A stretch of 64,000 nt of DNA from Polytrichum commune (lineage: Eukaryota > Streptophyta > Polytrichopsida > Polytrichales > Polytrichaceae). The stretch lies in NCBI GenBank assembly GCA_950295325.1, contig OX485803.1, positions 31,425,554-31,489,553 of the forward strand, written 5' to 3'. Positions 12,326-54,922 of this stretch are shown here, piece by piece. How positions within the stretch are numbered: the stretch's first letter is position 1; the number at the start of each line of letters is the position of its first letter. Under the pieces are notes generated by a model. It saw only the letters and a list, made by a program, of their open reading frames with translations, searched no databases and was not told the origin of the DNA. The position numbers and the translations under genes are program-made.

Positions 12326-12389
12326 TGTGATGCCCGATCTAGAAATTGCATACAACGTTAGACCAACTTCAAGATAAAGCGACACCGTA

Positions 12390-12407
12390 ATTCACATGGT
12401 GACATTA
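12390..12407. repeat. Target-site duplication, left copy
   Basis: The 18-bp sequence attcacatggtgacatta is repeated exactly at 25952-25969. The two copies bracket the non-LTR retrotransposon and mark its ends. Confidence 0.9.
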
Positions 12408-13270
12408 GGAAGAGGGATGGCGGACGGAGCACTTCGGAGCTCAGAATTGCAGAACCTCGGCGAAGCCCAAGCACAGACAAGGCCTACACACAGGAGCGCC
12501 GACTCGAAGAACCTCGACTCCCAAGCCCGGAAGAAACTTACACATCAGAGCTCAGATCTGAAGGATCTCGGCGACGCCCAAACACCAAAACCACTTGAAC
12601 ATGTGCGGCAGTGCAACCGGAGAATACCGAACAGGAGACACTTGAAGCAATGGAAGTTAGTGTCAACAACAATTTTATTAGTGTTTTGGGCACTAATTGG
12701 CCTCTACAATACACTCGGCCACAAAAGCCACACCCTACTTGATGCATTTCCTCAATACCCTAACCCTAGATCTGCAGCTAAGGTAGTAGAAGACTCCTCC
12801 TCCCCTCAACCCGATACAGGACCTTGCCTCTCACATCTCCTGCACGCCATCCAACTACCTCCCCCACAAATCAAATGGAGCCGCCGCCGCCACTGCTGCT
12901 GTTGGAACTGCTGCAACGCCACCGCCCCCCTCACGAGCATATGGAGTTGCGGAATCAAGATCAGCAACTGTCGGGACCGACCACCTCAACCCGCACGCTC
13001 CACAAACATCCCCAACAAGTATGCACAACTCGCTCCCAACAAGCCCCCATCAGCACAAGATCAACATCGCACAGAAAGGTACCGCCTAACCCTAAAGCTT
13101 CATCTTGCAAAACGTATCCACACACAGACCACTCCGCTACACCTTCATACAACATTCACACAATCACAACCCCCCCCCCCCCAACAATCCACACATAGTT
13201 GGACACCTCACACACCAATCATACAATCGCAACATACAACACACAAAGGACACACGCAAAACAACGCCAA

Positions 13271-13390
13271 CATACCTTACATCTGTTGCCTCACCACCAT
13301 CCTCCAACAAGGGCTCCGAAAAAGAAGTCACACACCTTACATCTGCCGCCTCCCGACCATCCTCCAACAAGAGCTCCGAAAAAGGAAGCA
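13271..13390 (+). repeat. 60-bp tandem duplication within the LINE
   Basis: Two copies with an exact 60-bp period, sharing ccttacatctg, accatcctccaacaag and gctccgaaaaa. The period is a multiple of three, so the reading frame is kept. Confidence 0.8.
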
Positions 13391-13957
13391 CGAGCAGAGG
13401 GCTGCCCCCCGAAGCATGCACCACTCACCGACACCAACAGCCGACCGCCACACAAATCCCACAACAAGCACTAAAACTCCACCAAAACACTACAGAACCT
13501 TCCTCCTCAAACACACAAAACCTCACAATTCAATCCCCCACTCACAAAACCTCCCACTGCAACCCAGAGCGCACACCAAACAAACACAGCCTGGGATGAT
13601 CACATACAAACAACAACTCCAAACAAAGCAAAACAAAAACCCTCCCAGCCCCGAAGGGGCACCCTCACCTGATCGGAGGCAGACGCCATGTCGCAAAAGA
13701 CCACACCAACGCCACCTCAAAATACCGCCGCATCACCTCCCACGACCTCCCACAACTCACATTACAGCTCACACAAACTCAAAGTTTGCATCTGTCACAG
13801 ACTGCACAATCACAAACACAAACAGCCAATGGCCAAACACAGCCGACCACGGCCCACACACACCCACCCGCATTAGGCAAGGCAAACCACTACATAATCC
13901 ACTCCCTTCCCCACCCAATAGCACTCACCGCCCATCACTCTCAAGCAAGCACTTCGA

Positions 13958-14203
13958 ACACAGCTCCCACCACCCTTACTCCTCTACTCTCCTCCCATCT
14001 GCCTCTATCTCACATTCACCCCCCAAGGTTACACACAGTCACACCCACAGGCTTCAGCGAACTCTCAAGAAATTAGCCGAACACAGCTCCCACCACCCCC
14101 ATTCCTCCACTCTCCTCCCATCCACCTCTCTCACACACTCACCCTCCAAGGTTATACATAGTCACACCCACTGGCCACAACGATTTCTCACGAAATCAGG
14201 AGC
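13958..14203 (+). repeat. 123-bp tandem duplication within the LINE
   Basis: Two copies with a 123-bp period, starting acagctcccaccaccc at about 13959 and 14082. In frame 0 this is a 41-residue protein repeat beginning EHSSHHP. The length kept the frame. Confidence 0.8.
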
Positions 14204-17149
14204 CACCACCGCCAACGAACACCGCAACCAAGAAGCAACCAGCGCCGCGACAGAGACATCAGCGCCCCCCCAGTGCACCGCATCCATCCTCGACACCTCA
14301 CGCACACACATCGAAGGAGCAGTAGGCAACCCCAACTACAACATCATACACTTCTCCCACAAAATCACAAAGGTAAACACAGACCCCCCCTACCAACTCC
14401 CCCACATTGCATGCAGCAGCAGGATTACTAACTCAATTGAGCCATGCAGAATAGGAAAGCATGAGCAATCGCCCACACATGCCAAGCCCACACAGCACGC
14501 CCAACACACACTAGTAGCAGCGCAGCCAATAGATCGATGAAGCCCCCACCGAATTGCGAACCTGACAGGACAGAAGACCCCACCAGAAGCACTGGGTACG
14601 CCGCTGCAGCCACAAACGATCCCTGCACCCACCACAACACACATCAGCGACACCACACCAAGTCCCAATCCCAGCAAACACAACCACCCACCCCGAGAAA
14701 ACAAGGTACGCACACAACCTGCACACCACCATCTTAGAAACCATCCATTCAACAACAAATTCACCCCACAAAGTGGCCCCTGCAGATCACACACAACAGG
14801 TACAACAAACAGAAGAGGAGGCCCCAACCGAACACGGGCACACGACAACCTCCACACAACGACCACACTCGGAATCAAGACACCCAACCCCCCGAAGTCA
14901 CAAGGAGCACTCAACAGGCACATCCACAACCAAACCCACAGTGCTACCGAGACGAACGACCTCCAACGGCACTTTATTCAAGCAGGAGCTGACCCACTAC
15001 CCAACACCCGACCTCCAAATAACATGGCCCAGCCCAACCAGCAACCGCCACACCAGCTCAGCAGCCAATACATGGAATTCCGACAGCAAATCCATGCCCA
15101 GCCGCCAACCTCTCACACATCACCACCATCACATCAACAAAATCGCTCACATGTGCAAGCCGCGGAGGAGGACCTCGACATGGACGCCCAACTAGAAAAT
15201 GTGTCTCCCGAGCGAGGAGGAAGCTCCCTTCAAATATCATCCGAGAGAAACTCCATCTAAGCCGCACAATTGACGCCACATAAATCCGCACACAATACCG
15301 AGAGCACGCCACCAACGCTACACTACCGTAACCCGCGACTCGAAGACATCTCGGAGAGCCAAACCACCAAGAGAAGGAAAGCCGACGACTACACCGCGAC
15401 ATCCACACCCACAATACCAAGTAAGACCATACCACCCTCACCATACACGAGATCTAAGCGAATCGCTACTCTAGGAATCGACATGATTGGCCAAATGTGG
15501 ACAGGATTCCAAATGCATGAGGCAATCTCCATACAAAGGGGTAAAAGGGAATTGAAGGAGAATCGTAGCAATGAAGAGTTCAACACCCTAGGAACACCCG
15601 TCAACGAAATCCATGAATTTAGAACGGTTCGGAGGGCATTCCCACGAACCAAACAAATTCTCTATCCTACGGAGCGCCCGGATGCGGTCCCCGGACAACA
15701 CCTACATTTCACACAAATCCCCATGTATGAGAAGATCTCTCTAGACACGGGTCTCACCGAGGGATTCCATGTTACCATACGATTTGACGGAGAATACAAG
15801 AGACTTAGCCGAAAGGAGGTCAAAGCCGCATGCATGGAGCGACTACGACACATGAATATACCCCTAGGGACCGCATACTCCAACCCAATAGACATAGGCA
15901 TCAATACGGTCACAAGGAATTGGGCCGGCTTCATCAAACTTCATCTCCAACACCCGAAGAGAGACGGTTTGGCCCTCCTCCGGGGGGAACGAGCCTTTGT
16001 CATGGCAATGGGGGACGGAGAGCTAGTCATTGGCAAGGTAGAAAAAGGCTTCGAACTCATCACGAAGGCCAAAAACATGAGGCTCCACCTCAAAGGCGAA
16101 GCCCTCCGCAACAACACGGCCGTCGACATACTTAGGACACTCATGAGAGAATCTTACTACGACGGCCGAGAGGTAGAAATCTTGTCACTCACCAAGTCAG
16201 AGGTAGAGAAAGACTTCGCCTTCATCACCCTCACCACCGAAGAATCTAGAGATGACATCCTCAACAACGGCCTCATCTACCACTCCGAACGCCTTAGAGT
16301 GAGCATCACCAGGGATAAAGACATGGGCAACATCTCGGAGCTCCGAATTAGCACCACGCTAGTAGCCAACAACTTACCACAAAGGGAAGCTCAATCGACC
16401 ATCACAAAGACCCTCAAGAAGCTATTCGGAGAGGACAACATCACCGGCATCACTTTCGGTCACCAATCCATACACGGAGAAGATCGGCACGCCGGATGGT
16501 GCCACATCCAATGCCTTAATGCGGCGGTTTACACGGAGTGGCTAAGGAAATCAACGTACATCCTAGGAAGGCGGGTGGACTTCATCCCATACAAGGGGAG
16601 CATAGACGGCACCGAACCTAACCAAACGGCCATACACCTCGCACACGCCCCCGTTCGCGAAGTCATAGCTCAAAAAGCCCAAGCTATGAGCAACACCGCC
16701 GCATCTTCACCCCTCGTGTCGGAGAAGTTCTTCACCAAAACCATCAAGGAACTAGTCGAGACGGTGGATGGCAAGCTCACCACGCTAACCAACAACATCA
16801 ACCTCAACACGGATAAGCAAATTGAAGCATCCACGGATACACTCAAGGCACATGCAACTAACATGCATAGCATCATGAGCGCCATGGCGATGGAATTTCA
16901 ACAATCCAACAACCGTATCCATAACATCATGCAAACATTGGCCGCCACATCACCGGAACCTCCCCACCCCCACATCGCAAGACTCCCGCAAGCACCAAGT
17001 ACTTCCATGGCAAACACATATGCGGGAGACATCAACACATATCTCGCACCTCCAGGGTTTACCGGCATACACCTCCGATCCGAAGCCCCTCATCAAGCCT
17101 CCACAAAGATCAACGACATCCCAATGAATAGAAAGCTCCTAGCATGCCT

Positions 17150-17770
17150 ATTGAAGTGTCTCATCCGTATAAATTGTATTTTCTATTTTCTTATAAATAA
17201 AGAGTTATACATTACCACCACTACAATACTCCTAGCCAAGATCCGTAACACAACAAATATAAACATAACCAAAAAGCACACTTATCCAATAGCATCCACA
17301 TGGTCGATGATTACATACAACATTTATCTCCTAGTTTATACATATATAAATAAAAAGTGTACACGCACCAAGATACTCACTACTACTCTCATCTATGCCC
17401 TTATCGTCTTAATAATATGGGTCCACTTACACACATGGACGATACTCACACACATACTTTGTATTACCTACTTTTTTATTATAAATAAAAAGCATGCACT
17501 CCCATTCCTCAAAATCCGTACATTGGCCTCACTCGCCAACATCATTAGACTAAATCAAATAAATAAAAAATATTACCAAGCTACCACAAAGGACCAAACC
17601 ACCCTCATGAGTAATAAACCAATAGTATATATATGGACGATACTCACACATATCATATGTATTTTTCTACTCATAAATAAAAAGGGCATAAACACCCAAA
17701 AATTTTCCAACATACTTACCACTACATGTAATATACCAATAGCATATGGCCATTTCACAACACACCCCAC
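17150..17770 (+). repeat. Degenerate repeats with AATAAA-like words before the first 2A-like site
   Basis: Words such as ataaataaaaag recur at about 17190, 17346, 17484, 17563 and 17673. The segment tggacgatactcacaca occurs at about 17432 and 17635. The blocks recur at intervals of roughly 100-150 bp. In frame 0 they translate as hydrophobic stretches ending in an INKK-like tag. No stop interrupts them. Confidence 0.55.
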
Positions 17771-18041
17771 ACTAAATACAACAACACTCTTACACAACAC
17801 AAACTACTCACACCACAAAGCCCCCACCACCTCTCCATACAACATCCCCAATAACATGCACAACACACTAAACAACATCACACCCACATTACTAAACCAA
17901 TTCAACTCTCTAATCCCACCCATCTATACCATAACATACATAGGTAAATTTCAACACATAACACACATGCATTTTAAAAACCCCAAAGTTAAACTCCTCC
18001 AATACTACACATGGAATAATTCTATAATCATCCTCCTAGGA

Positions 18042-18068
18042 GGGGATATCCAAACAAACCCGGGACCT
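18042..18068 (+). other. First 2A-like ribosome-skipping motif
   Basis: The frame-0 codons encode GDIQTNPGP, preceded by the hydrophobic IIILLG. The canonical 2A core is D-(V/I)-E-x-N-P-G-P with release between Gly and Pro; here Gln replaces Glu. Such motifs are known near ORF2 starts in animal non-LTR elements. Activity of this variant is not known to me. Confidence 0.7.
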
Positions 18069-18419
18069 CAAACAAACACCCTCAAAAGTCTAATAACAAA
18101 ACACCCCCAAAAGCACAAACAAAACCTCACACACAACACACCCACACTTAAACCATATTATGGACACCCTCTACACCTATGCAAACAACACTATAACCAA
18201 CATACAACTTATCTCTCAAACAATAACCTAACCCCACTAAACCAACCAAACCCCACCTCACATACAACCAAATATACAAACATTACAAACACTAGACCAA
18301 AATCTCCCCCACCTCACATAACCCAATCCAAACATGTTACAAAAATTCCTAATAAAAAACTACAATTAAGCATAATAAATAAACATCATATCCAACAAAA
18401 TCTACTCATACTACAATGT
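18069..18419 (+). pseudogene. LINE: short peptide between the two 2A-like motifs
   Basis: Frame 0 is open across this 117-codon segment, which is rich in Asn, Thr, His and Pro. It has no recognised domain and would be released as a small separate protein if both flanking 2A-like motifs work. It could also be a spacer. Confidence 0.5.
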
Positions 18420-18446
18420 GGCGATATTCACCCTAACCCAGGGCCC
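18420..18446 (+). other. Second 2A-like ribosome-skipping motif
   Basis: The frame-0 codons encode GDIHPNPGP, preceded by LLILQC. Histidine replaces the canonical Glu of D-x-E-x-N-P-G-P. It lies 351 nt downstream of the end of the first motif, in the same frame and just upstream of the ORF2-type region. Confidence 0.7.
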
Positions 18447-19861
18447 ATGCCTAACCTACTACAAATACACCCAACCGCCCATAAAAGACGAAAAAACACA
18501 TACTTTTTACCAAGCACGATTAAATTCCAACCTGAATACCAACATCTAGCTAAAACATTTGGCCCCCTTTTCCAAAATACACACCAATTACACGAATACA
18601 CAACAACCGCATTACCATATTTATACAACTACATACAACAACACATAAGCCACCCCCCCCCACGAATCATATACGCATTAATCGTAACAATTAGCCCCTC
18701 CACGGAAGTATGTAACACATACTTACAACAACCATCACAACAAGATTGGACATCACAACTACTTGAAAAAATGACAACACTGTCCAATCCCCCATAAAGA
18801 CACATAGGCACCCCACATCCATACACACAATTCCGCGACATATATAAAGATATAATCACCCCTCCCGATACAATACACACAAAACTATACGACTACATTC
18901 ACCTAAACTCTAACACACGTAACATTCAAGACATAAGTGAAGCATTCCCGTACTTACCTAGACAACTACTAATAGAAGCATTAAGATATAACGAACCCAT
19001 AAATGAATACACTCACCCCAACCCCATCCCGACACAAAACTCATCGCCACCAAACGGACCACTTCCACTAACAAGTCAAGAAACATATGTTATAACATGG
19101 AATGCCTCCTCATTGAACACCGCCATGCCACGCCTACAAGACTTAATTGCAAACCCTCAAAAACCCCCCTCAATCATCACCATACAAGAAACTAAGTTAT
19201 CTGCCACAAAATCTACAAAGTACATCGAAAAATTATTCCCACAATACAAACTTTTCTTTAACAACACGGACAACATCACAAGAATCATACGTCAAAGAAT
19301 GACATACAGAGGTCATAAAGGCGGCCTACTGCTACTAATACATAAAAAGCATGCATTCCCATGTAACCTCTCCAAAATCCCCACACCCGCAGATATATCT
19401 CCATTCCTCCAAATAACACGTATAGCAAACCAACCCCTACAACCATGGCTCCTAATAAACTTATATATGGCCTCACACGAGGAAGACATACCTCTTATTC
19501 CCACCATACAAAATGTCATAACTAACCAAATAAATACACACCCCAATCACATATACATACTATGCGGAGACTTTAATCGGGACATCGCCTTAATAGGTAG
19601 ACAAAATGATCAACAAACCACTCCCCCACAAATAGAGGACTACTAATGACAGTCCTTTATAACTAGCCTCGAACTATCATACGTCCCAACAAATACAACA
19701 TTCTCCAGACAAGGAGGCCACAACTATACCCAAAGTAGTCTAATAGACGGTTTCTTCATCAAAACCCCTAACAACAACCAATACACCTCAAGTACAAACC
19801 AAAATATTCAGCTAAACTCCGACCACTTACCCATACAACTACAAATTCCCCAAACACACTC
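18447..19861 (+). pseudogene. LINE: APE-type endonuclease region
   Basis: After a leader interrupted by TAA at 18795-18797, frame 0 encodes an exonuclease III/APE-like domain from about 19090: ITWNASSLN, IQETK (Glu codon at 19188), GGLLLL, LLINLYMA, CGDFNRD (Asp at 19569), SLIDGFF and NSDHLPI (Asp at 19821). All catalytic signature positions I can name are present. TAA-TGA at 19644-19649 splits the domain. The enzyme nicks target DNA for target-primed reverse transcription. Frame 0 meets TAG at 19863, where the reading continues in frame 2. Confidence 0.85.
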
Positions 19862-20429
19862 ATAGCCAAGACACCACCCATTCCCTCTGAAATACCCCCT
19901 AGGCTACTAAATCCCATACCACAAGAAAAACTAGAAAAAATCCACACTACATTCTTTGAAAGACACTCAAACCAAATAGACGATCTTACACAGTTACTAA
20001 AAAACAACCAACTCACAAATGAACAATGGCAACTAGCCTGCACCTCATTTGACACTATCACAGACAACATCACCAACGCGGTCCTAGAAACATGCAGTGC
20101 CCCACCTATTCCCACACTACCAAACAACATTGCCCAACAAGGTGGATACCTCCCCAAGAAACCCCAAAAACAATGGAAACTAAACCTATCCACCTACCAC
20201 CTTATCCGTAAAATAATCTACATCACAAAAAACAATCCGAATTGGCGCAACCACCCTAATATCACTCAAGAAATAAACAGCCATACCCACAAGTCTATAC
20301 CCCCACCACCCAACTCATTATTAGAATACGATCCGTGGATAGAAGAATTAGCCACAATAGCAAAAGAAGCTAAAAACAAAGCCAGAAAAATCACGACAGA
20401 ATACACCAACAAACAAATCAAAAAAAACT
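19862..20429 (+). pseudogene. LINE: APE-RT linker, frameshifted
   Basis: The reading continues in frame 2 (IAKTPPIPSEIPPRLL and onward) to the A8 run at 20420-20427, then returns to frame 0. It is mostly helical and charged, as linkers between APE and RT commonly are. No catalytic motif is seen. Confidence 0.6.
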
Positions 20430-23400
20430 ATATCTAAATACCAACAACTATACGACAAAAGCCCCAAGAAAATAAACAGAAAAGTCTTTAAAAATACCGA
20501 CACCCCCCCACTCGACTGTCTCATAGATAGATATAATAACATCCTTACAAACCCAAAAGATATTGCACAAGAAATACACGCACAACAATCAATCAGCAAC
20601 AGACCCACCGTACCAACATGCCATTATCAACCAGACCACACACAAGACTGCATATGTGGTGTTAGACAATACCCGTGGCATGACCTAAACGGATATACCA
20701 TAGAAAAACGGGGGGAATCAACAATTTCCTTACACACATATCTGGACCAAGAAACATACGACATATGCCTCAAAAACTTGGCCAACGGAAAAACCCCTGG
20801 ACCTGATAAAATCCCTAACGCCATACTCAAAAACATGCCGCCAAGATTCCACAAACTTCTCTTCTTATTCTTCACACACTGTTACAAACAAAAACAAATC
20901 CCCGAATCTTGGAAAACAAGCCTCACAATTCTCCTATACAAAAAGGGAAACCCCCACCAATTTACCAACCATAGGCCAATTGCATTAGCCAATACAATAT
21001 ACAAACTATTTACTAGTACGCTCACAAGCATTATCTCCGCATATGGAGAAAAATATCAAATCCTACACGATAGTCAAGAAGGCTTCCGAGCTGAACGATG
21101 CACTGCCCAACAACTACAAACTATCATCGTCGCATTAGATGATGCAAGGCTCACCGATCAAGACATTTATATCCTATACATAGACTTTAAAAATGCATTC
21201 GGCTCTATTGACCATGCTAGACTCCTCGCTATTATGAAGGACCTATGTTACCCACAAGATGCGGTAGCCTTAATAGGTAATATTTACTCACAGTCCACTA
21301 CCACGTTTACCGGAGAACACTTCGATAAAACACAACCAATACCTATACAAAGAGGAACTATACAAGGAGACACAGTAAGTCCGTACCTTTTTATCATTTT
21401 TCTTGAACCACTCCTTAGATGGCTACAACGTGGAAATAACGGATACACCTTTAAAACCTCTTCTATGCAACTAAGCTCTGCAGCCTACGTGGATGACCTA
21501 GCAGTAATATCCAATAACTTGGCATCCCTCCAATTCCAACTAAACAAACTCGATAGATACTGCGAATGGGCAGGAATGGACCTGGGCATCCCAAAACGCG
21601 CAGTCACAGGATGCCCCAACAAATCCAAGCTAAAACCACAAGCCTTCAAAACACAATTAGAAAACGCTAATATAAATTTCCGGAACCAACCCATCCCTAT
21701 CCTAAGCCAACACGAACCATATGTCTACCTTGGAATTAATTTAGTCCCATCATTACAATGGAAAATACAAACACACATAATAACAACTAAACTAGTCAAG
21801 CAATGTAAATTATTAACCACATGCCCAGCTACTATGAAACAGAAAATACAAATGGTTGATACAGTCATAAGAGCTGGCATTGCCTATAGTTTCTATGCAG
21901 TCCCCTATTCGCTTCCCGCCATTAAGAAACTTGATAAAAGAATAATTTCCATACACAAAACTATATGTGGCCTGCCAAAATGTATGTCAAATGCAGTCAC
22001 ACAACTTCCCCAAGAAATGTTCGGCACAGAAGCATTCTCACTAAAAAATGCCTACATCACATGTATAGGAGAACAACTCATTCACGCCCTCAATGATAAA
22101 GGGAGACTTGGGAAAATATATAACGGATTAACAAAGCACATACTCGCCAAACATGGAGGATCACTAACCCTGCCACGCATATCTCAACATGACTGTAAAA
22201 AGTCACCAATCACAAGAACATTATACCTACTAAAAACTACCATTGGTGTCCATCTAAGAAGCAAACTCGAGAAATTCCCCCTTCTCCCCACACCACTTGA
22301 AACACAATGGATGCGCCAAGCACAACATACACCAACACTAACCCCCATAACCTCTCTAAAATATCTACACAAACTTACACTACACCATATAACTGAACTT
22401 AAACACATAACTCACCCAAATGGCACACAACTAATGACCAACGATGAATTTAAATACTATTATGACACACCCACTAACACAATTAAAGCCGCCTTAAACC
22501 AAGCAAGGATACTCTTTTGCGAACCGACATGTCACAACCAATGCTCAAATAATTGCCCAACACACGCCTTACCAAACACCTTACAAAATGCATACAAAAT
22601 ACAAAACCACCACATAGATCCAAGAACAAGAAGACACACCGAACACCCCCCACCACCTCCACCGCCCGAACACCCAAAACCACCACCGCACATTCCAAAA
22701 AATCCTACACAATTCCCAATACATTCCATAATACAGGACCGCCCCCACAACTACAAAGATAACAACAAAATTACAAAAAAATATACTTCCTATCTATGTC
22801 AATGGATACTCCCAAATGGATCAATATATAACAAATGGCTTCCCCAAAGAGACTTATTCCCATGGGAGAACCAAAACACAATAAATCATAACATCCTAAT
22901 ACTAACACAATATTACACACACAAACAAAATCAACACTTCGCCAACATCTTAAAAGAAAACTTCGATGAAACACAAATAAGAGACACAAGGCACATCCCT
23001 CCACCACACATCATACCCCTATGCCACATTAACATTAATGAATGTAACCCAGACACCGACATCGCCTGCACACAAACCACCATCCAAAGCCAACATGGTG
23101 AATCACATATCTTTGACGACGATGGACGCCACTTAATTACCATTCCAAAACAAAGGTTACAATGGCTATGGGAACAATACCAAAACACACTAAGTCAACC
23201 ACACAATTTCGAACCCCCCATACAATCATTTGAAAAGGAAGTTGCATGGCTATATCAACGATACAAATATAGAATGCCCAAAAACGACCCCCTCAAACTC
23301 TCCCAATACACACTACCAAATGCCATCTTAGAACACATTATCGACTCATTCCAAATTACCCATTCACACTTTTCATCACCAGTGACATGCCCCACCTCAC

Positions 23401-23480
23401 TAAAACAATTCTCTTCCCCATTCCCCAAAGATAAAGTATTCGGGTCAATAGGAACAACATTCCAACATAAATGGACTGGG
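20430..23480 (+). pseudogene. LINE: reverse transcriptase and C-terminal extension
   Basis: Frame 0 from the A8 run carries all main non-LTR RT blocks: GKTPGPDKIP, TILLYKKGN, NHRPIALAN, QEGFRAERCT, LYIDFKNAFGSIDH (block A Asp), QGDTVSPYLF (block B), AAYVDDLAVIS (block C, Asp codons 21492 and 21495) and YVYLGINL. This open stretch has no internal stop. After the thumb, from about 22500, comes a Cys-bearing segment (CEPTCHNQCSNNC), a proline-rich linker, and further ordered sequence (TSYLCQWILPNGSIYNKWLPQ) that I do not recognise. The frame is lost near 23480. Confidence 0.9.
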
Positions 23481-23904
23481 AATGGATACGCCCACCCTCA
23501 CCCAACAAGCCCTCCACTGGGCAAGACTTGCGGCCAAAAAAGACCCAAACACAATAACGATACTCATAACAACTGACCCTGACTGGTACCACAACCTCCA
23601 TCCACACACAAGTCCTTTCCCAGACTCACACGTCATCACACACTTCAGAGCAGATACCATTACATACGACGAACCCACAATACCACCGGAACTAAGAATC
23701 GAACCCTGAACAGAAAGTCGTGACATTAGAATAATATGTATACACCACAAAACTACACCCATCGACCCTATAGGCTACATGGACCGTATGCACAATATTG
23801 CCAAATCTTTACAAATACCCACCGTATTCAACACAACCGCACCTCCCACGCCAATAAACACACCTGTAAACCATAATAAGAAATGGTCTCAACTTCCATA
23901 CCCA
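23390..23904 (+). pseudogene. LINE: unrecognised ordered domain between RT and RNase H
   Basis: Starting in frame 0 (FGSIGTTF.HKWTGNGYAHP) and continuing in frame 1 from about 23483 (LTQQALHWARLAAKK, ITILITTDPDWYHN, DIRIICIHH), this reads like a folded alpha/beta domain. The YAHP near the start and the DPDWY later loosely recall an NPP(Y/W)-type methyltransferase-like module found in some retroelements, but that is only an impression. A TGA at 23707-23709 interrupts it, probably replacing a Trp codon. Confidence 0.5.
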
Positions 23905-23919
23905 CCCCCCCCCCCCCCC

Positions 23920-25465
23920 ACCCCCAATTCAAAATATCAATATCCCACCCATCACAAATCATGACATATGCCTACCCCTTAAATACCCACCACAATTTTG
24001 CTACTATACCGATGGGTCATTTATACCACCAAAAGCAATAACCGAAGAACATTGGCGACGAGAAAAGGCCGGATACGGCATATACAACCCTTTCAAAAAC
24101 CTTAAAATTGCAGAAAGACTACCAGGACTCCAAAATATACTAAGAGCAGAACTAATGGCTATCTATCACACGCTATGCCTCCTCACCACTACATATCACA
24201 ATGAACCTGCACATATTTTCACGGATTGCCTTAATGTTCTATACCTTCTAAACACACAAATGAAACACCCAACCTCACACAATAGTCATCTAGACAAGAA
24301 GATACTAGAATCCATAATTAAAATGCTACAATCCCGAACACAAACCACCACACTACATAAAGTCAAAGCCCACACGAATATAAGTGGCAATGAACAAGCA
24401 GATAAATTAGCCAAAATGGGGTGCGAATTAGACCATAGAGATGCCATAGCAACACACGAACATGCCCACCCCACGCCATACTACCTCCAAAAAGGTTGGT
24501 GGCACTCAATGCAAGAAACGCCGGATAAAGGTCCCATTCGACACCTTGGTAAATACATCACTAAATATGACAAAAAACACAACCTAGCCCTCATAGCTAC
24601 CCAAACACACCAATTACACAAATGGCTAGACAACAAAGATATAGACAAAACATTATCTAATGATTTCTGGAATAACCCTGTCATCACAGATAGACAAAAA
24701 ACATGTCTAATAAAATTCCGAACTGGACAATATATGGGACATGCTCGGAAACAACTCTTCTTTGGTAGAAATGCATACCCATCCCATACATGCCCTATTT
24801 GTAACTCACCAGAAGCAGACACATGGCTACATGTACTCCTAAAATGCAAACAACAACACATCCATGCGCTTATAACAAATAGGCATAACAAAGCAGTATG
24901 GGAAATACGCAAACTCCTCGTTTCAAACAAAGTAACAAGACACTACATACTTATGAATGCGGGCACATACAATGATCTACCCCAAGAAAACACAGTACCA
25001 ACATGGTTACTACCATGCACATGCGACACCCAAAGATGCCACTGTAACGCTCGGCTCAAACCCGACATAATATGTGTCATAGGCCACCCATACAATTCTC
25101 CACCACCCGAAGCACCTACACCCACAATCACAATACAATTCATTGAATTTACTTACTGCAACGACAGATTCTCAAATGAAACAAGAGAACGAAAAATTAC
25201 AAAATATCAACCACTCATAAACAATATTATCGCAAAGGGTTGGAACGTAGCCCCACTTATTGTATTAGCATCTGGTGCTAGAGCCACAACTCACATCCCC
25301 TCAATGAACGAACTCGAAACAAAGCTTAAACTTCCTACATCACAAATTAGGAACACATTCAAACAACTCAACATAATTGCCATACAATATGCACACTCAA
25401 TATTAATCCACAAAAGACGAATAGAAAATAAACAACCCATCACAGACTTACAAAACCATAATTAA
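23920..25465 (+). pseudogene. LINE: RNase H and restriction-like endonuclease
   Basis: Frame 2 after the C15 run first gives an RNase H: YYTDGSF (Asp at 24011), RAELMAI (Glu), IFTDCLN (Asp) and HTNISGNEQADKLAK (His, Asp); all are present. It is followed by the R2-type endonuclease signature: zinc knuckle CPICN...H...C (24791-24847, C-x2-C-x9-H-x4-C), RHN (24881-24889), KPD (25058-25066), Glu in FIEFTY (25145-25147), KYQPL and ASGARA. This order of knuckle, RHN, (R/K)PD, E and GAR is specific to RLE domains of early-branching non-LTR elements. The frame ends at a normal stop at 25463-25465. Confidence 0.87.
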
Positions 25466-25951
25466 AACTAGAGAGGGGTAGTGGTCATACCACTAGTTAT
25501 TAAAGTTACCACCTATAGCTCAGAAAGGCGGGGAGTAGCCGGTTGGTTGGCACAACTTTCCTGCCTATGATTACTCACTTGCAGCACCAAGTCAAAGTGT
25601 ATTGCACTAACACGCTCAGACGGATTCAACGCGAATCGAACCCGGACCGTATTAACACAACACGCACGTCCTTATCCAACCAACCTTGGAACCATGACTT
25701 GGCGACCAACTACATAACCAACCACCATTTATACTCCAAACAAATACGCTCGCCACTCGTCTCAAACAAAGTAGCAAGACCCACAAAATTCTAATTAAAA
25801 TCCATGCACCCTCTCCCCCCCCCCCCCGGTTTAACCGGTTAAAACCTCAGTTACTAACATAGTGTCTACTCCCTGTAAAGGGTGAAGTAGTATTACACCC
25901 AACGCCACTACCCTGGGGTATGGCCGCGGTTATCCTACGAACAGACACTTT
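25466..25951 (+). other. LINE 3' untranslated region
   Basis: Untranslated tail with a C14 tract (25814-25827), a ggtttaacc-ggttaaaacc hairpin beside it, and a G/C-rich terminus ending tacgaacagacacttt. There is no poly(A) tail. A short segment near 25757-25790 resembles coding sequence at 24918-24945 (tcaaacaaagta.caagac), a possible internal duplication. Confidence 0.6.
25620..25700 (-). repeat. tRNA-like A/B-box sequence in the LINE 3' region
   Basis: On the minus strand a B-box-like gggttcgattcgc (25643-25631) lies about 40 nt after an A-box-like ggttggataagg (25683-25672), the spacing of a tRNA-derived promoter. No full cloverleaf is evident. It may be an antisense SINE remnant. Confidence 0.35.
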
Positions 25952-25969
25952 ATTCACATGGTGACATTA
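25952..25969. repeat. Target-site duplication, right copy
   Basis: Exact 18-bp repeat of 12390-12407, immediately after the LINE's 3' end. Confidence 0.9.
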
Positions 25970-27784: not shown

Positions 27785-29004
27785 GGTTAAATTGGGAAGC
27801 ATACGAGGACCAATCAGGAGAAAATTTGGCTCTTTCGTATTCGAAATCCCTCCAACCCCCCCTTCAAAATTTGGCGCCCCCGCTGCCGACCTCCAGACGA
27901 AGATGAAACGCCCATAGGTCGCGCGATAATAATCCCAACGGAGGCTCGGGCGACCGGAGGTCAGAGCGGGAAGGCGGGGCCAGTTTGAACGGTAGTGTTT
28001 GTCGCTCGCCCAGTGGCTATGGCGATCATCTCCCTCGCTTTCTTTTCTCCCTCCATCGCTCCAGGCTCTCCTCCCCTCATTCCTTCCCTCGCTTAGACCT
28101 CCATCCTTGCCTCCTTGGCTGCCCTCCTTTTGGCGCTGAAATCATCTCGAACGGCTCGGTTTTGAGGGAGATAGAGCCGCGGGACTGATTGGGAGACAGA
28201 CAGCAAGCCGGCAAGTCTGTCATCACCGCTGCGGATTCCTCAATGTTCTGCGAGATTGGGAGGTATTCTGTGGTTGATTTTGAAGGTCTTGTTTAGGTTT
28301 GTAGAATTCTGGACAGGTTGATGCCCAAGAGCATCCTGAGGAAAGCTCCTCACTCAATGTTCTGCACAACTAGAAGGGGCAGAAGAAGTCAGGCAGGGGC
28401 AGCAGAGGCTTTAGATCTCGAGAAGAAATGCACATATGTTAGGTTGAAGAGCATCATCACTTGTATACAAAGTTGAGATGCTGTTGTGGAAGAATTAGGT
28501 TAGGTGTCCATGGTAGAATATTACGAAGTAGTTCCTTCTGCACAAGGAGCAGAAGAAGGCAGGCAGGGGCAGCAAGATACTTCACATCTTGAGAAGAAAT
28601 GCACATATGTTAGGTTGAAGAGCACTACCAGTATACAAAGTTGAGATGATGTTGTGGAAGAATTAGGTGCCCAGGTCTGTAGGATTTTGGACTGTAAAGT
28701 GCTTGTTTGTAAAGCTCCTCAATGTTCTGCACAAGTAGAAAGGAGGAGAAGAAGGCAGGGCAGGAGCAGGGGCAGCACATCTTGAGATCTGAGAAGAAAT
28801 GCACATCATATGTTAGATTGAAGAGCCTCATGGTTTGTATACAAAGTTGAGATGATGTTGTGGAGGCATTAGGTGTCCATGGTAGAATATCACGAAGGAG
28901 TGTCAAGCTATGGCGAGATGAGATGAGGCAGTTGACGAGGAGCAATCTACAATCATAGTTAAACCTGGAGAGAATCATACTGGCGGGCCAACCAGGCGGA
29001 GGCA
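27785..29004 (+). promoter_or_regulatory. CDC45 upstream region, probable promoter and 5' leader
   Basis: GC content rises from about 27790, with ttggcgccccc (27871-27881) resembling an E2F-type TTTSGCGC site, which would suit an S-phase replication gene. From about 28290 to 28900 a segment is triplicated (listed separately). No upstream coding gene is recognised. The transcription start is not visible. Confidence 0.4.
28295..28900 (+). repeat. Three tandem units of about 170-200 bp upstream of CDC45
   Basis: The anchor word cacatatgtta lies at 28431, 28602 and, with a 3-base insertion, 28802, giving spacings of 171 and 200. Units share ttctgcaca, agaagaagncaggcagggg, gagaagaaatgcacat, gtatacaaagttgagatg and tgttgtgga. 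They lie directly before the CDC45 ATG and may be transcribed as leader. Confidence 0.75.
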
Positions 29005-31362
29005 ATGGTTAGAGAGACCAATGTGGGGGCGTTCTATGAGAAACTTCGGAAGGCTGTTGGCGCCGCTGTTAGCTCTCCCCTGCTCATATTCCCATCAGCT
29101 GCGGACACGGATTCATTGTGTGCCTTGAAAATTGTTACTCACCTCCTTGTTCAGGACTCAATACGTTACTCTGTTTATCCTGTAGCGGGTTTCAACAGCA
29201 TACAGAGCTTAGCCGGGCGGTCACTGCGATCAGACGACGAGCCTGTGGTGATACTTTTGCTCAATTGGGGTGCTTCCCGGAACCTGCATCGGCTACTCAA
29301 CCTTGGCTCACAGGTCCAGGTCTTTGTTGTGGACAGCCATAGGCCCATTCATTTGCATAACCTTAACGAGTCAAATTTGCAGGTTACTGTATTGTTTACA
29401 CATGATGATGAGACACAGGCAGACATGCCATATGGGTTCATGTTGAACAGTTTGTCAAGGTTCACTACGACATATGACTCGGAGCCTGAATTAGATGTGG
29501 ATGAAGAATCTGATAGTGATGATGATAGTGATGATGATGATGATGATAACAATGAAGGGAGAAGGAAGAGGAGAAAGAAGGGAGGGCGGGATGACCAGGA
29601 GGAGCAACTTCTGAAGGCAGAGTACTACAGGATGGGGTGCTTTCATGGCCGCCCATCTGGATGTCTTATGTTTGACATCGCGCATTCGTTGCATAAGAAT
29701 ACCAGTGAGCTCCTTTGGCTCGCAATTGTGTCGCTAACAGATCAATTTGTACATGAGAGGCTTACTTTGGAAAGGTACACATCCACGCAGGCCGAGCTTG
29801 AGGGGTTTGTGACCCGTGCTGGCAGCTTGGAGAAGAATACAACCATTACACTAAAGGATGGGACGAAAGTGCGGGCGCCGGATGTGTCAAGGATCACTTA
29901 TGATTATGACTTGCGGCTAATGCTACTGAGAGAGTGGAGTCTGTATGAAGCTATGATGTGCTCCTTCTATGTTGCACCTAAGCTGAAGACATGGGGCGAT
30001 GTGGGCCTCAAAACCATGAAGCTTTTGTTTGCCAAAATGGGCATCTCACTTGCCGAGTGCCAGCAGCAATACCAGTACATGAAGAGCGAGACTAAGAAGG
30101 GATTGCGGCAAGAATTTAAAAATATAGGGCAGGAAGCTGGGTTAGGGGATCTTGAGTTTCCTACGTTCTTTAAGTATCATGGATACAATGACCAAGTGTC
30201 AGCAGCGGATGTTGTCTATGGCGTTACAGCATTGTTAGAAGCCTCAGCTGTGGATTCCAAGAGTGACTGGACGGACAACTTCTGCTCCGCCCTTGAAGCT
30301 CTCTCACCAGAGAAGTGGGAGAATCTGCGAGAAGGAATGCAGCTTGCAATCAAGGTGCAACAAGCGAGTATCAGTACTGGGAGTGCAGCCATCGTGAAGA
30401 AGGACCAAATCAAAATGTGCAAGGCCTTCAGGTTGGTGTCCTCCCATTCCATTTTCTTGTGCAATATTTGCAGCAAGCTTGTATTCACTACACAAGTGTT
30501 CTCATGTGCCATAAAATTGGCCTGGAAATCTCATCTTCTTTCTCTTAAGGAAAAAACCTTAATTCTGCCACATGGGTGAAATTTGTGCAATTTATCATAC
30601 TGGAAGGATCAATCTCAAATAGATTGATGTCTTCTAAGGTGTTAAATGCATTTGCTAGCATATGATGGTGGCAAAGCCCATGTTGCTGAAGCAGCCAGTG
30701 TTCTTTGCCGTCCAATTAATCAAAGAGAATTTCTGAACTCTTATGACTATCCACAAGTTTTAGCAGATTTTGATCTTCCAAGGGCACCATCTGTATAACC
30801 TCGTGTGCATTTGAGCAGAATCATGTGTTCTGCAATCACCTGCATCTAAATAGGTGCATAATTCCTTGGAATGCTTACACATCTGTTTTTAAGTGCTGCA
30901 GCTCTTGAAATTTTGCTAGTTATTGGCAATGCAAAAACTTACTTTGCCTACCTGTGGATATTATCTGAAGATGTCTGTGTCGTTGTTTCCTCCAGGTATT
31001 TTGAGCTTCCCAAATCCCTTGAGGCCCAGCTCCTGGCACATCCTTTGTCTCTTGTGAAGCTCTGCTACTTTCTGATGGATTCATTAAAGGAGCAAGGTCG
31101 GGCAGTGAAGCCTATGATCTGCATTGCAACCATTCCCGGGCCAGCTAACATGGCTCTTGTTGTGGGAGTCTCCCATCGACCACGACTTGGTGCTGCAAAT
31201 GGCAACAAATTTGGATTAATTTTCCGTGCTATAGCTGAAAAACTTGGCTCAAATTACAGCCATGATGCCTTTGAATCCTCTTGGATACATTTAGCTGCTG
31301 CTGATGTCACCCGCTTCATGCATGAGTTGCAAACTTCACTAGCTGGCTATAGCTCGCTTTGA
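29005..31362 (+). CDS. CDC45: Cell division control protein 45 (CDC45), two exons
   Basis: CDC45 is the DHH-phosphoesterase-like subunit of the CMG (Cdc45-MCM-GINS) replicative helicase in the nucleus. Exons: 29005-30431 and 30996-31362 (1794 nt, 597 residues), joined over a 564-bp GT-AG intron with an in-phase Arg codon. Supporting segments are LLIFPSAADTDSLCALKI and LLNWGASRNL at the N-terminus, an Asp/Glu-rich stretch plus basic run (about 163-195) typical of the family, MFDIAHSLHKNTSELLWLAI, LREWSLYEAM, MGISLAECQQQYQYM, and at the C-terminus LVVGVSHRPRLGAANGNKFG and FESSWIHLAAADV. Length matches plant CDC45. The acidic stretch is partly a (GAT)n repeat at 29515-29546. The ATG at 29005 begins the conserved N-terminus. 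Confidence 0.95.
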
Positions 31363-34083: not shown

Positions 34084-47159
<13,076 letters not shown>

Positions 47160-49430: not shown

Positions 49431-49979
49431 GATTGAATTATTAATACAAATGCGTTCATTTGTGATTTACGAACGTGCGTTTGTAAACTCTCAACCATCA
49501 TCTATGTTTGAATCAATACTACAAATGCATTGATTTGTGATTTATATTTGTACCATAGGTTGGTTGAAGGCTTGAAGCTTAGAAACATTGGATCTGGATT
49601 CGGTTTGCGAAAACCACCTTTGACCAAAAACGTTAGCTAGTCATAAGGATCCGAAAACTCCACTATAGGTTGTAGAAGGTTACAAATGCCAGCTCTAAGC
49701 TTATATTATGGAAACAACATCTAAAAGTTGGCCATTCAGACAAAAAACGTGAGCTCGTAGGTAGTGTCCAAGACATATTTTTTAGCCTTAAACGGAAGTT
49801 TAAGGCGATCATACGTCAAAGGAGTTTTCTAGAGATGCACTAGGTTGGGAGGTGTTTTTGCAAGGCTTGGAAATGACTAGCAACAAAAGAATTAATGTAG
49901 CAAGGAATGACTGCAAACACCCATTAACAATGGGCTTTCATATATACGTACTATGCAGCATTTCGTTGCTACGCAGAAG

Positions 49980-50630
49980 TTTACAAAAATGTGGGCCGAT
50001 GTTTACAAATGCCCGTTCGTAAATGTGCATCGAGGTTTACGAATGCCCGTTGGTAAATGTGGGCCGAGGTTTACGAACGCACGTTCGTAACTGTGCAACA
50101 CTTGGTTGCTGCGCAGAAGCTTACGAAAATGTGGGCCGATGTTTACGAACGCCCGTTCGTAAATGTGCGCCGATGTTTATGAACGCACGTTCGTAACTGT
50201 GCAGCATTTGGTTGCTGCAAAGAAGTGTACGAAAATGTGGGCCGAGGTTTACGAACGCCCGTTCGTAAATGTGCGCTAACATTTACGAACGCACGTTCAT
50301 AACTATGCAGCACTTGGTTGCTGTGCAAAAGTGTACGAAAATGTGGGCCGAGGTTTACGAACGCCCGTTCGTAAATGTGCGTTGGCGTTTACGAACGCAC
50401 GTTCGTAACTATGCAGCACTTGGTTGCTGCGCATAAGTGTACGAAAATGTGGGCCGAAGTTTGCGAACGCCCGTTCGTAAATGTGGCTAAGGTTTACGAA
50501 CGCCCGTTCGTAAATGTGGCGGAGATTTACGAACGCCCGTTCGTAAATGTGGGCCGACGTTTACGAACGCCCGTTCGTAAATGTGCGCCGACGTTTACGA
50601 ACGCGCGTTCGTAAACCTCCGGAATACGCG
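49980..50630. repeat. Left array of near-palindromic acgaacg-cgttcgt motifs
   Basis: Repeated units contain tttacgaacgcccgttcgta or variants with gcac or gcgc centres, joined by aaatgtgggccgaggt and by gtgcagcacttggttgctgc-gcagaag-tacgaaa spacers. About a dozen palindromes lie within 650 bp. The frequent open frames translating as YERPFVNV-like repeats are by-products. Confidence 0.85.
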
Positions 50631-51829
50631 GCGGTATATGCGGTGGATATACGTTGTACATACATGAAGTGTGTAGTTTGGACGCATAGAAATGTGATAT
50701 GCGCGCACTCCTACAAGTCTCTAGAGCAGTCTCTAGAGCATGCCACAAAAAAGAGCTATGGTGTGGGGGGGGGGAAGACCTTTAAGTACTGCTCTAGGGC
50801 GATTCAAAATCCTTGGATGCTCTTTAAAAAGCGGATTCCCGCTGCCTACATTAACCTAACAATATGTCATTCTATCCATGCGAAACATGTATGACGCTAT
50901 GTATGGAATATGTATGGCATGCATGCAACATATTGAAAATATTAATGTCGCTCGCACACCTTAGGTGTTACCAAGGCCTCAGGATAAAAACATAAATACT
51001 ATAATAGTCAAATGTTATTGAAATATGATGATGCTTAACATTAAATAAATGATTTGCGACCAAGTTATGAAATCTAAGTTTTTGGGCAATTGATACCTAT
51101 ATGTTACCAAGGTCTAAGTGATATATATATATACACATACATACAATGAGGTAGGAGTGGGTCAAAATTAGTTGTGGAGGCCCCTAAAATTGTATATATT
51201 ATATGATTCACATCAAAACATATCCAGAATATGCTCACTAAGTGTGTGGACACCAATAAAAAGTCGGATTAATTTGGAATGGCTTGTAAGGTAGAGGAAG
51301 GATATGATATGAAACCATACCTAAATATAATGTAGGTCTTAATTTAAGTGCAAACCTAGATGTGGAAAGATTGAATTAATCCGGAATGTGTGGCAAGATT
51401 GAAATTAATTTGGAATGGTACATAAGGTAGAGTAAGCATATGAATTCAAAACATACCTAGGTCAAGTCACACTAATTGCATGTTTTTGCATCCTACGAGA
51501 AGTAGGTGCATAACTAAAAGTATTCATTTAAAGTTGAGTCTTAAGACATGCATGTTAGAATAAGATTAAGTATGGACTGTGTGATCAAAATGCACTCAAC
51601 ATTATTAAGGTGAAAGAGGAAGAATTCCAAACTTCATTTTTGACATAAACCAAAGTTGTATTTCAAATCCAATTTTGAATCTTGAAATGACAATCGGCAT
51701 GATTCTCAATAGTTGTTATTAACCGGATGAAGCAATATCCAATCCAACCAACATTGGTAGACCAGTTGGACATGCCCACATACCACAACATGGCCACATA
51801 TTTTGAATATTGGTAAGATTAAAAGATTT

Positions 51830-51880
51830 AGGGATGTAGGGTTTAGGGTTTGGGGTTAGGGTTTGTGAAAGTTGTGCATG
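51830..51880. repeat. Interstitial telomere-like repeats
   Basis: About four degenerate tttaggg units (tagggtttagggtttgg and neighbours) in the loop of the foldback element. The plant-type telomere motif is clear, but it is too short to be a telomere. Confidence 0.6.
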
Positions 51881-52654
51881 TCCGACAGTTAATACAATAG
51901 ATTACACACACAAACGATATTGACTACTCAATAGCCCATATTGCATTCACTTAATTATGTAGAATGCACATTTTATACTTGCCAAACATCCGATCACATG
52001 GCTCAAATACACTTAGTTCAAGTTGAAGTTAAAGTTCAATGCACTATACAAATGTTAGTTCAAGTTGACACCTAATTATATGAATTGATGACATGTTCGA
52101 AATCGAATTTCCCTCCACCTCTACTAAAATTAAGTTCACCCCCTCCCCCCAATCTCAAATTGTGTATTTTATGAAGCTAATAATGATTATAGGAACTAAT
52201 GAACAACTTGAAAGATATTTCATTCTTGAAAACAAAATATTTCAAAACACCATATGAGCATCCTTGGGGTTGAATTCTTCATCAAATTTCTACTAAATGA
52301 TGTGCATTGTTCACTACAAATTTATACTCCCTATGTACCTAATGTTTACAAAAGAACCAAATGTATAGGGACTAATAGAATGGGGAGAAAAAATTCATTT
52401 GTATTTATACTAAGCTATTCAAATCAATATGATAAACACCTATACTACATATACATAATACAATACATGAATTAAGCATGCCTTCATTACTTACAAATTT
52501 TACTTTTATTTTCATGCAAGAGAGTCATCGAACGTTTTTCCATCCTAATAAGTATGGACAAGGTAGTCATATGACTGCCTCCATAATATGACAACAATTC
52601 ATGTATCGTAACTTGGATGAAACTAACACATTTCAATGGTAACAAATTCCCTCC

Positions 52655-52740
52655 CCACCCCTATCCCATCCCATCCCAACCCATCCCATCCCATCCCATC
52701 CCATCCCCTCCCCACACCCCATCCCACCACATCCCAACCC
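52655..52740. repeat. (TCCCA)n microsatellite
   Basis: A run of about a dozen tccca pentamers with interruptions, within the foldback loop. Confidence 0.8.
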
Positions 52741-53574
52741 TTCTCACGTGGAGGAGGCCACGTAGCAACAATAGGGAAACCCTAGCGGCGTTGGCTACCT
52801 CCCCGCACCCCTTCTTCTCCTTTCATTGTCATTTGGAGCATAGAAAGGAGAAGCGGAACGCTGAGCACATGCGGAGCGGAGCTCTTGTCATTTCTTTAGT
52901 CATATCTTTTCTTTGTTTTGTTGGCTCGCGTGTTTGAGAGTCGCAGATTTCTTTTTAGAGTTGCAAGTTTGCTAGTAGAGAGCTTAAAAGCTACAAACTT
53001 GAAAGTTGCATACACATAAGAGTTGTTGCAAGGGTTTGTATGTAACGTGCGAGGGCTTAAGAGTGTGAGGGAGGAATGACTAATGTGAGGGTGCAGTAGA
53101 TTGAATTTACAATTCTGAGGTTTTTGAAGTTTTTCACTAAATGAGGAAGCACAAGTTTTGGATGTATACCAATTCAACGTGCATAGTGTAATCTTCCTGA
53201 ACTCACTTCCTTCACATTTTGAAATTTTTTTCATTATTGAATTCTATGTGTTTTTTTCCATGTATGTTGAGCTTTGGCATGTTTTGTTTGCAAGCTTCCC
53301 CATGTTTTTCGATTTAGTGTTCTCTCACAACCTGAAACTCAATTATGTTTTCATTCGGTTGTTTCAATTTTCATCGTTCTCAAGTTTTATCTTCACTTGC
53401 AGTATGTAAAGGCACCAATTCAAGGTTAATAAGTATCAATCACAAACCAAAAGTGGCAAGATGGAATGGACAAATCACTGATACATATCAACCACTCCAT
53501 TATAGACCAATGCATATTTGTATTTGTTTATATATGAATATAAAAAACATATGTACATGCGTAAATACCGAAGC

Positions 53575-54480
53575 ATGTTTACGAACGGGCGTTCGTAAAC
53601 TTCAGCGCAACAACCAAGTGCTGCACAATTACGAACGTGCGTTCGTAAACGTCGGCTCACGTTTACGAACGGGCGTTCGTAAATCTCGGCCCACATTTAC
53701 GAACGTGCGCTCGTAAACCTCGGCCCACATTTTCGTAAAATTCTGCGCAACAACCAAGTGCTGCATAGTTAGTAAATGTGCGCCGACTTTTACGAACGGG
53801 CGTTCGTAAACCTCGGCCCACATTTTCGTAAAATTCTGCGCAGCAACAAAGTGCTGCATAGTTAGTAAATGTGCGCCGACTTTTACGAACGTGCGTTCGT
53901 AAACGTCGGCTCATGTTTACGAACGGGCGTTCGTAAATCTCGGCCCACATTTACGAACGTGCGTTCGTAAACCTCGCCCCACATTTTCGTAAAATTTTGC
54001 GCAGCAACCAAGTGCTGCATAGTTAGTAAATGTGCGCCGACTTTTACGAACGGGCGTTCGTAAACCTCGGCCCACATTTACGAACGGGCGTTCGTAAACC
54101 TCGGCCCACATTTTCGTAAACTTCTGCGCAGCAACCAAGTGCTGCATAGTTAGTAAATGTGCGCCGACTTTTACGAACGGGTGTTCGTAAACCTCGGCCC
54201 ACATTTTACGAACGGGCATTCGTAAATCTCCGCCACATTTACGAACGGGCGTTCGTAAACCTCGGCCCACATTTTCGTAAACTTCTGCTCATCAACCAAG
54301 TGTTGCACTGTTACGAACGTGCGTTCGTAAACCTCGACGAGTATTTACAAATGCGCGTTTGTAAACCTTGGCCAACAACAAAGGTTGCATATTTACGAAC
54401 ATGCAATTGTGAACTTCGGCGTAATAACCAAGGGCTGCATGTTTACGAATGCACGCTCATAAACCTTGGCTACATACAAT
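53575..54480. repeat. Right array of near-palindromic acgaacg-cgttcgt motifs
   Basis: The inverted counterpart of 49980-50630, with tttacgaacgggcgttcgta and gtgcgttcg variants joined by aacctcggcccacatt and cttctgcgcagcaaccaag spacers. About twenty motifs. Spacers are the reverse complement of the left array's. Confidence 0.85.
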
Positions 54481-54922
54481 GAAAATGTACACCACCCCCC
54501 TGCTACAATAATCAATAGCGAATAGGAGTACGTATATATGAAAGCCCATTGTTAATGGGTGTTTGCAGTCCTTCCTTGCTACATTAACTCTTTTGTTGCT
54601 AGTCATTTCCAAGCCTTGCAAAAACACCTCCCAACCTAGTGCATCTCTAGAAAACTCCTTTGACGTATGATCGCCTTAAACTTATGTTTAAGGCTAAAAA
54701 ATATGTCTTGGACGCTACCTACGAGCTCACGTTTTTGGTCTGAATGGCCAACTTTTAGATGTTGTTTCCATAATATAAGCTTAGAGCTGGCATCTCTAAC
54801 CTTCTACAACCTATAGTGGAGTTTTCGGGTCCTTATGACTAGCTGACGTTTTTGTTCAAAGGTGGTTTTCGCAAACAGAATCCAGATCCAACGTTTCTAA
54901 GCTTCAACCAACCTATGGTACA

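Follow-up and report, generated by a model that had tools for sequence, protein, structure and literature searches.

The 64 kb window analysed here, that is, the whole stretch of Polytrichum commune DNA presented above, contains a dead but still readable Dualen/RandI-like non-LTR retrotransposon of 13.5 kb, and with somewhat better than even confidence we explain it as the remnant of a progenitor that encoded one polyprotein split by StopGo. In the proposed scheme, the progenitor would have possessed one long ORF in which an ORF1-type part was joined in frame to the APE, RT and RNase H parts via two StopGo sites, represented by the 2A-like motifs GDIQTNPGP and GDIHPNPGP. The nascent chain would, at each of them, arrest the ribosome on NPG and be released, with translation resuming from the next Pro, and the predicted products would be ORF1p, a basic middle peptide of 126 residues and an ORF2p starting with Pro-Met. 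The scheme supposes that both motifs were functional, that the TAA at 18795 arose by decay and that the single ORF extended further, across the RT and RNase H parts, which now lie after frame changes. The coordinates of the features are given in Table 1.

Table 1. Features of the retrotransposon and its flanking repeats, in positions of the 64 kb window.
Feature	Coordinates	Strand	Basis or remark
5' copy of exact 18-bp direct repeat (likely target-site duplication)	12390-12407		Exact match to 25952-25969
LINE-like element, 13,544 bp	12408-25951	+	Between the 18-bp repeat copies
N-terminal low-complexity part, Thr/Pro/His/Ser rich	12417-15257	+	First ATG 12417; TGA 14538-14540 inside, TAA 15258-15260 after
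ORF1-type part (long helices after a possible RRM/ferredoxin-like segment)	15261-17100	+	Position, weak fold hints
Repeated hydrophobic segments, several followed by INKK	17145-17672	+	Five 17-residue peaks above hydropathy 1.2
2A-like motif 1, GDIQTNPGP	18042-18068	+	Predicted break between Gly 18063-18065 and Pro 18066-18068
Predicted middle product, 126 residues, 14.5 kDa, pI 10.1	18066-18443	+	Low complexity, rich in T, N and P
2A-like motif 2, GDIHPNPGP	18420-18446	+	Predicted break before Pro 18444-18446; ATG 18447 directly after
In-frame TAA between motif 2 and APE domain	18795-18797	+	Stop in the frame of the motifs
APE-type endonuclease (Exo_endo_phos)	19092-19595	+	Pfam E 7.7e-7
Reverse transcriptase (RVT_1)	20949-21740	+	Pfam E 1.9e-25
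PCIF1-like stretch (PF12237), between RT and RNase H	23178-23489	+	Pfam E 4.9e-10 and 9.4e-11
RNase H	23996-24424	+	Pfam E 1.1e-14
Zinc-knuckle-like CX2CX9HX4C, then KPD...E	24791-25147	+	Motif reading
3' copy of exact 18-bp direct repeat (likely target-site duplication)	25952-25969		Exact match to 12390-12407

The element was recognized as a non-LTR retrotransposon (LINE) by an APE domain followed by a LINE-type RT in comparisons with Pfam and the PDB, together with the flanking repeat. This exact 18-bp repeat is likely to be the target-site duplication of the element: a match of this length is expected about 1e-4 times from composition, and in this window, which is rich in repeats, a match of at least 18 was obtained in one of 300 randomly drawn pairs of regions of comparable size. 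A skew towards C and A covers about the same span as the element and holds the LINE domains. The copy is dead, as it is broken by stops and frame changes. In its 3' untranslated tail, positions 25540-25700 partly resemble a minus-strand tRNA gene by eye, and neither ARAGORN nor Rfam called any tRNA or RNA gene in the 64 kb window.

Downstream of the motifs, the later part of the APE domain continues beyond the in-frame stops at 19644-19649 and, as judged by eye, reaches an SDHLPI-type domain end in the frame of the motifs. The nearest solved chains to the RT are those of R2 RT (best E 3.7e-27), followed by LINE-1 ORF2p from E 1.3e-15. In the C-terminal part, the KPD...E that follows the zinc knuckle is a possible PD-(D/E)XK (restriction-like) endonuclease, resembling by its motif the enzyme of this type in R2 and Dualen; the 26 residues between D and E are long for PD..E spacing, neither Pfam nor PDB comparisons of the C-terminal part supported a second endonuclease, and the model of this part (321 residues), folded without an alignment, had a pLDDT of 32.5 and was too poor to use. 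According to the available text of the respective sources, Dualen/RandI elements carry both an APE and a PD-(D/E)XK endonuclease (PMC3636483), and RNase H has been reported for them (PMC4640811). The Dualen label given in the first-pass annotation is plausible in view of the APE, the RNase H and an RT related to R2 and LINE-1; the possible PD-(D/E)XK-like endonuclease would be a further likeness, with the reservation of its long spacing and of the absence of a profile match. The available text on Dualen/RandI mentions neither a PCIF1-like stretch nor 2A motifs.

Of all parts of the element, the PCIF1-like stretch is perhaps the most unusual. It spans profile positions 6-106 of 176 and ends near a frame change, and its comparison with PCIF1 in the PDB gave E 0.002, or E 0.14 with a longer query. 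PCIF1 methylates the cap-adjacent adenosine; an active site was not seen in 23178-23489 or in the next frame, where Pfam (E up to 5) gave no family for 23479-23862. Among the matches listed in the literature on PCIF1, none described a PCIF1 domain inside a retroelement.

Upstream of the motifs, the first ATG of their frame, at 12417, lies 9 nt from the 5' edge of the element. The low-complexity N-terminal part that begins there contains in-frame tandem repeats of 60 and 123 nt, and at E up to 5 it matched no Pfam family over 12417-14537 and only TFIIA (E 3.2, below its cut-off) over 14541-15257. The part that follows, ahead of the motifs, is called ORF1-type from its position and from weak fold hints. 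Sequence comparison of the frame from 15261 to 18794 yielded nothing in Pfam at E up to 0.1 and nothing in the PDB at E up to 1. When the ORF1 part (480 residues) was folded without an alignment, the pLDDT was 39.6, which is too poor to name a fold, and a Foldseek search with this model returned 1176 matches at E up to 10, not one of which reached E 0.001; the top matches were ferredoxin-like ribosomal protein S6 permutants (best E 0.007), which is at most a hint of a ferredoxin-like fold. The hydrophobic stretch ahead of motif 1, in which a direct repeat is found at 17428/17626 with a spacing of 198 nt, may consist of membrane spans, and the ORF1 product may have been membrane-bound.

As stated in the first-pass annotation, the two motifs share a frame, are 117 codons apart and each follow a hydrophobic run, and the coordinates and the hydropathy percentiles agree on this. 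Both are in the frame with codon starts at multiples of 3, with 351 nt between the end of motif 1 and the start of motif 2, and with 126 codons from NPGP to NPGP. The seven residues before GD are SIIILLG in motif 1 and NLLILQC in motif 2, and their hydropathy is at the 99th and 95th percentiles of the frame, respectively. In the six frames of the window NPGP occurs three times, namely in the two motifs and at 34284, where it is not accompanied by D[VI]xx. The codons of the two motifs differ at five of the seven shared residues, which places the likeness at the peptide level and not in a fresh DNA duplication, and which fits either selection on the peptide or separate origins. Tandem duplication of the whole motif unit was also considered and was not adopted, as the alignment scores were insufficient: those for the 117 residues upstream and the 115 residues downstream of each motif were matched by 4% and 40% of 300 shuffles, respectively.

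The frame of the motifs is far more open than expected. Over 12378-19646 it contains four stops, the last of which is the TAA at 19644, versus about 79 expected, this expectation being the mean of dinucleotide-model sequences summed over six segments covering the span. Three of the stops fall within 12417-19643 (TGA 14538-14540, TAA 15258-15260 and TAA 18795-18797), and an adjacent stop pair is located at 19644-19649. The span 15261-18797 holds only its terminal stop, versus 46.6 expected and versus 71 and 58 stops in the other two frames, and 15261-17099 holds none versus 18.2 expected. After 19649 the reading changes frame, being in frame 2 from 19772, in the first frame over 20361-23576 and in frame 2 again over 23870-25465. 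Codon-usage scores discriminate frames poorly in this C/A-rich element, and the stop counts were relied on instead; the scores hardly favour the frame of the motifs in 12378-14540, and between the motifs they are 0.012 in this frame versus 0.135 in the +1 frame, which holds stops, a result that counts against the polyprotein. The first-pass annotation had described one frame that runs from the ORF1-type part over the motifs to the APE domain, and such a frame is found; it is not an unbroken ORF in this copy, where the TAA at 18795-18797 interrupts it. The location of the motifs between the ORF1-type and APE-RT parts is supported by the Pfam, stop-codon and start-codon evidence. If there was a single ORF, the ORF1-type part would have been separated from APE-RT by the NPGP sites, unless the fusion was itself the working protein.

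The in-frame TAA at 18795-18797 also counts against the polyprotein, since ORF1 could end there. In this case the element would have had two ORFs, with ORF2 translated by re-initiation or internal initiation and with the NPGP motifs being relics or having another role; the available text of one source (PMC5972666) reports termination-reinitiation in the LINE SART1 and gives it as a proposal for mammalian LINE-1. We consider such an arrangement improbable. The frame has no ATG between 18797 and 19125, and the latter position is already inside the APE match (19092-19595), which makes a separately started ORF2 unlikely; the 96 codons over 18798-19085 contain no stop in this frame, and their codon use in it is coding-like, with a score of 0.132 versus 0.002 and -0.188; and with four other stops by 19649 and the later frame changes the copy has clearly decayed, for which reason the TAA is read as decay. 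An ORF2p that starts at ATG 18447, in frame and directly after the NPGP of motif 2, with both NPGP motifs being coincidental, is scarcely credible. This ATG lies in a poor initiation context, with CCC on its 5' side and C on its 3' side, and is preceded within the element by 74 ATGs counted over all frames, so that scanning initiation for ORF2 is unlikely, and the chance expectation of the motif is near 1e-6. Least probable of all the readings is that both peptides arose by chance within a spacer of low complexity. T, N and P indeed abound in this stretch, whose complexity is low, and NPGP by itself is not especially rare, with 0.013 expected from amino-acid composition in the 1178-codon frame. 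However, the full motif is present twice in 126 codons, each time after a hydrophobic run, whereas about 1.5e-6 occurrences of GD[VI]xxNPGP are expected from composition in the same frame; 20,000 amino-acid shuffles produced at least one NPGP in 260 cases and at least two in two cases; and in a control with a viral-contig collection (2.9 million contigs by its description) a hydrophobic run was found in none of the three exact DNA matches to GD(V/I)(Q/H)xNPGP.

With the StopGo-split polyprotein as the preferred reading, the likely activity of the two sites can be compared. Against the core (D/G/C/N)(V/I)ExNPGP, the fixed positions of both motifs are present except for p14, which is Gln in motif 1 and His in motif 2. 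According to the available text of a 2026 survey (PMC12846837), Glu occupies p14 in nearly all RNA-virus cores; His at p14 is a natural viral variant that was over 95% active in reticulocyte lysate in its own context, Gln at p14 did not reach the threshold in the viral survey, and E14Q mutants showed 56% or 26% activity in earlier work cited there. The reservation made in the first-pass annotation, that the missing Glu leaves activity open, is eased by these values and not removed. The available text of the same survey (PMC12846837) describes, as one natural upstream class, L-rich runs that terminate in (A/S/C)G ahead of D; by eye, ...LLILQCGD of motif 2 fits this class, and IIILLGG of motif 1 is near it but ends in GG. 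By analogy with these cases, motif 2 appears to be the likelier active site, and motif 1 was perhaps only partly active. A narrower form of the polyprotein reading, compatible with it, is that only motif 2 separates and that motif 1 is weak or dead, giving two products; we regard this as a serious possibility that falls somewhat short of even. The residues at p14 and the better upstream class of motif 2 speak for it, and the Gln and the GG of motif 1 weigh in the same way against the polyprotein with two working sites, but motif 1 retains an intact G-D-I and NPGP after a run at the 99th hydropathy percentile. The available text of a further source (PMC11512398) states that sequences with a canonical core are not all functional and that some natural sites seem to terminate translation without a downstream product; this also counts against the polyprotein, as does the fact that one copy only bears on selection on the motifs, and termination of this kind at the present sites would leave no ORF2p. 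The predicted spacer of 126 residues is within the range of about 50-150 residues given in that text for viruses with several 2A sites, and a sea-urchin 2A-like sequence was active in Nicotiana leaf cells (PMC4981915, available text).

2A-like sequences in LINEs are known, those of animals having an L-rich run before GD..NPGP, and it is the tandem pair, the Dualen-like setting and the plant host that look new. In 2006 Heras reportedly described a 2A-like sequence in L1Tc of Trypanosoma cruzi, and in 2013 Odon is said to have described 2A-like sequences in APE-type non-LTR elements of multicellular organisms. As in the 2A-bearing LINEs (L1Tc, those of sea urchin and others), the 2A-like sequence here is in frame with APE-type LINE proteins, whereas the tandem motifs, the Gln and His in place of Glu, the position between a long ORF1-type part and the APE domain, and the RNase H and other extra domains set the present element apart. 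Among the matches listed in the 2A and Dualen literature, a set mostly without subscription papers and without Odon 2013, none described tandem 2A in a LINE, 2A in Dualen or 2A in a plant LINE. The one literature match to the motif string was a mycovirus report with VHPNPGP, and the available portion of a 2013 table of plant LINEs, covering flowering plants and green algae, places RandI under green algae only. Searches of contig collections gave four pattern matches for the RT part and one for the C-terminal part among viral contigs, 26 for a longer RT part among genome contigs and none for the ORF1 part among viral contigs; no relatives were found among them, which says little as these collections consist of viral and prokaryotic records. 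The Paavivirinae picornaviruses, as described in the available text of PMC11512398, resemble the element in having at least two NPGP sites, with spacers in the range given above, between capsid and replication parts; they are viruses and not LINEs, and RNA-virus cores nearly always have Glu at p14, unlike those found here.

In its fullest form, the proposal is that of a plant LINE with two tandem non-Glu StopGo sites, at which a single polyprotein would be divided into an ORF1p linked to membranes, a basic middle peptide and ORF2p. The polyprotein, which would have exceeded 4,000 residues provided that the ORF extended from 12417 to where the RNase H/C-terminal part ends, would include a PCIF1-related stretch, and the element would represent native use of StopGo in a plant. 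We advance this combination tentatively and hold it to be rather unlikely as a whole. If true, it would provide a native plant case of StopGo and two natural non-Glu cores, and a LINE that separates its ORF1 and ORF2 products as the multi-2A picornaviruses do. The available text of the 2026 survey (PMC12846837) reports no evidence of natural StopGo in plant viruses, although it is functional in plant cells.

In the surrounding sequence, genes of DUF604/Fringe-like and CDC45 type identified with Pfam flank the element. DUF604 is a plant family, which by itself suggests a plant host. The CDC45 gene at 28963-30579 is one intron-free open frame of 538 codons that covers profile positions 3-509 of 624. 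Further along, 49572-54907 has inverted arms of 381 nt, 97% complementary, which enclose arrays of TTTACGAACG-type repeats, and in this layout it resembles a DNA transposon with repeated sub-terminal sites. A fragment of a DDE_1 transposase is located at 62648-63526 (Pfam 3e-11).
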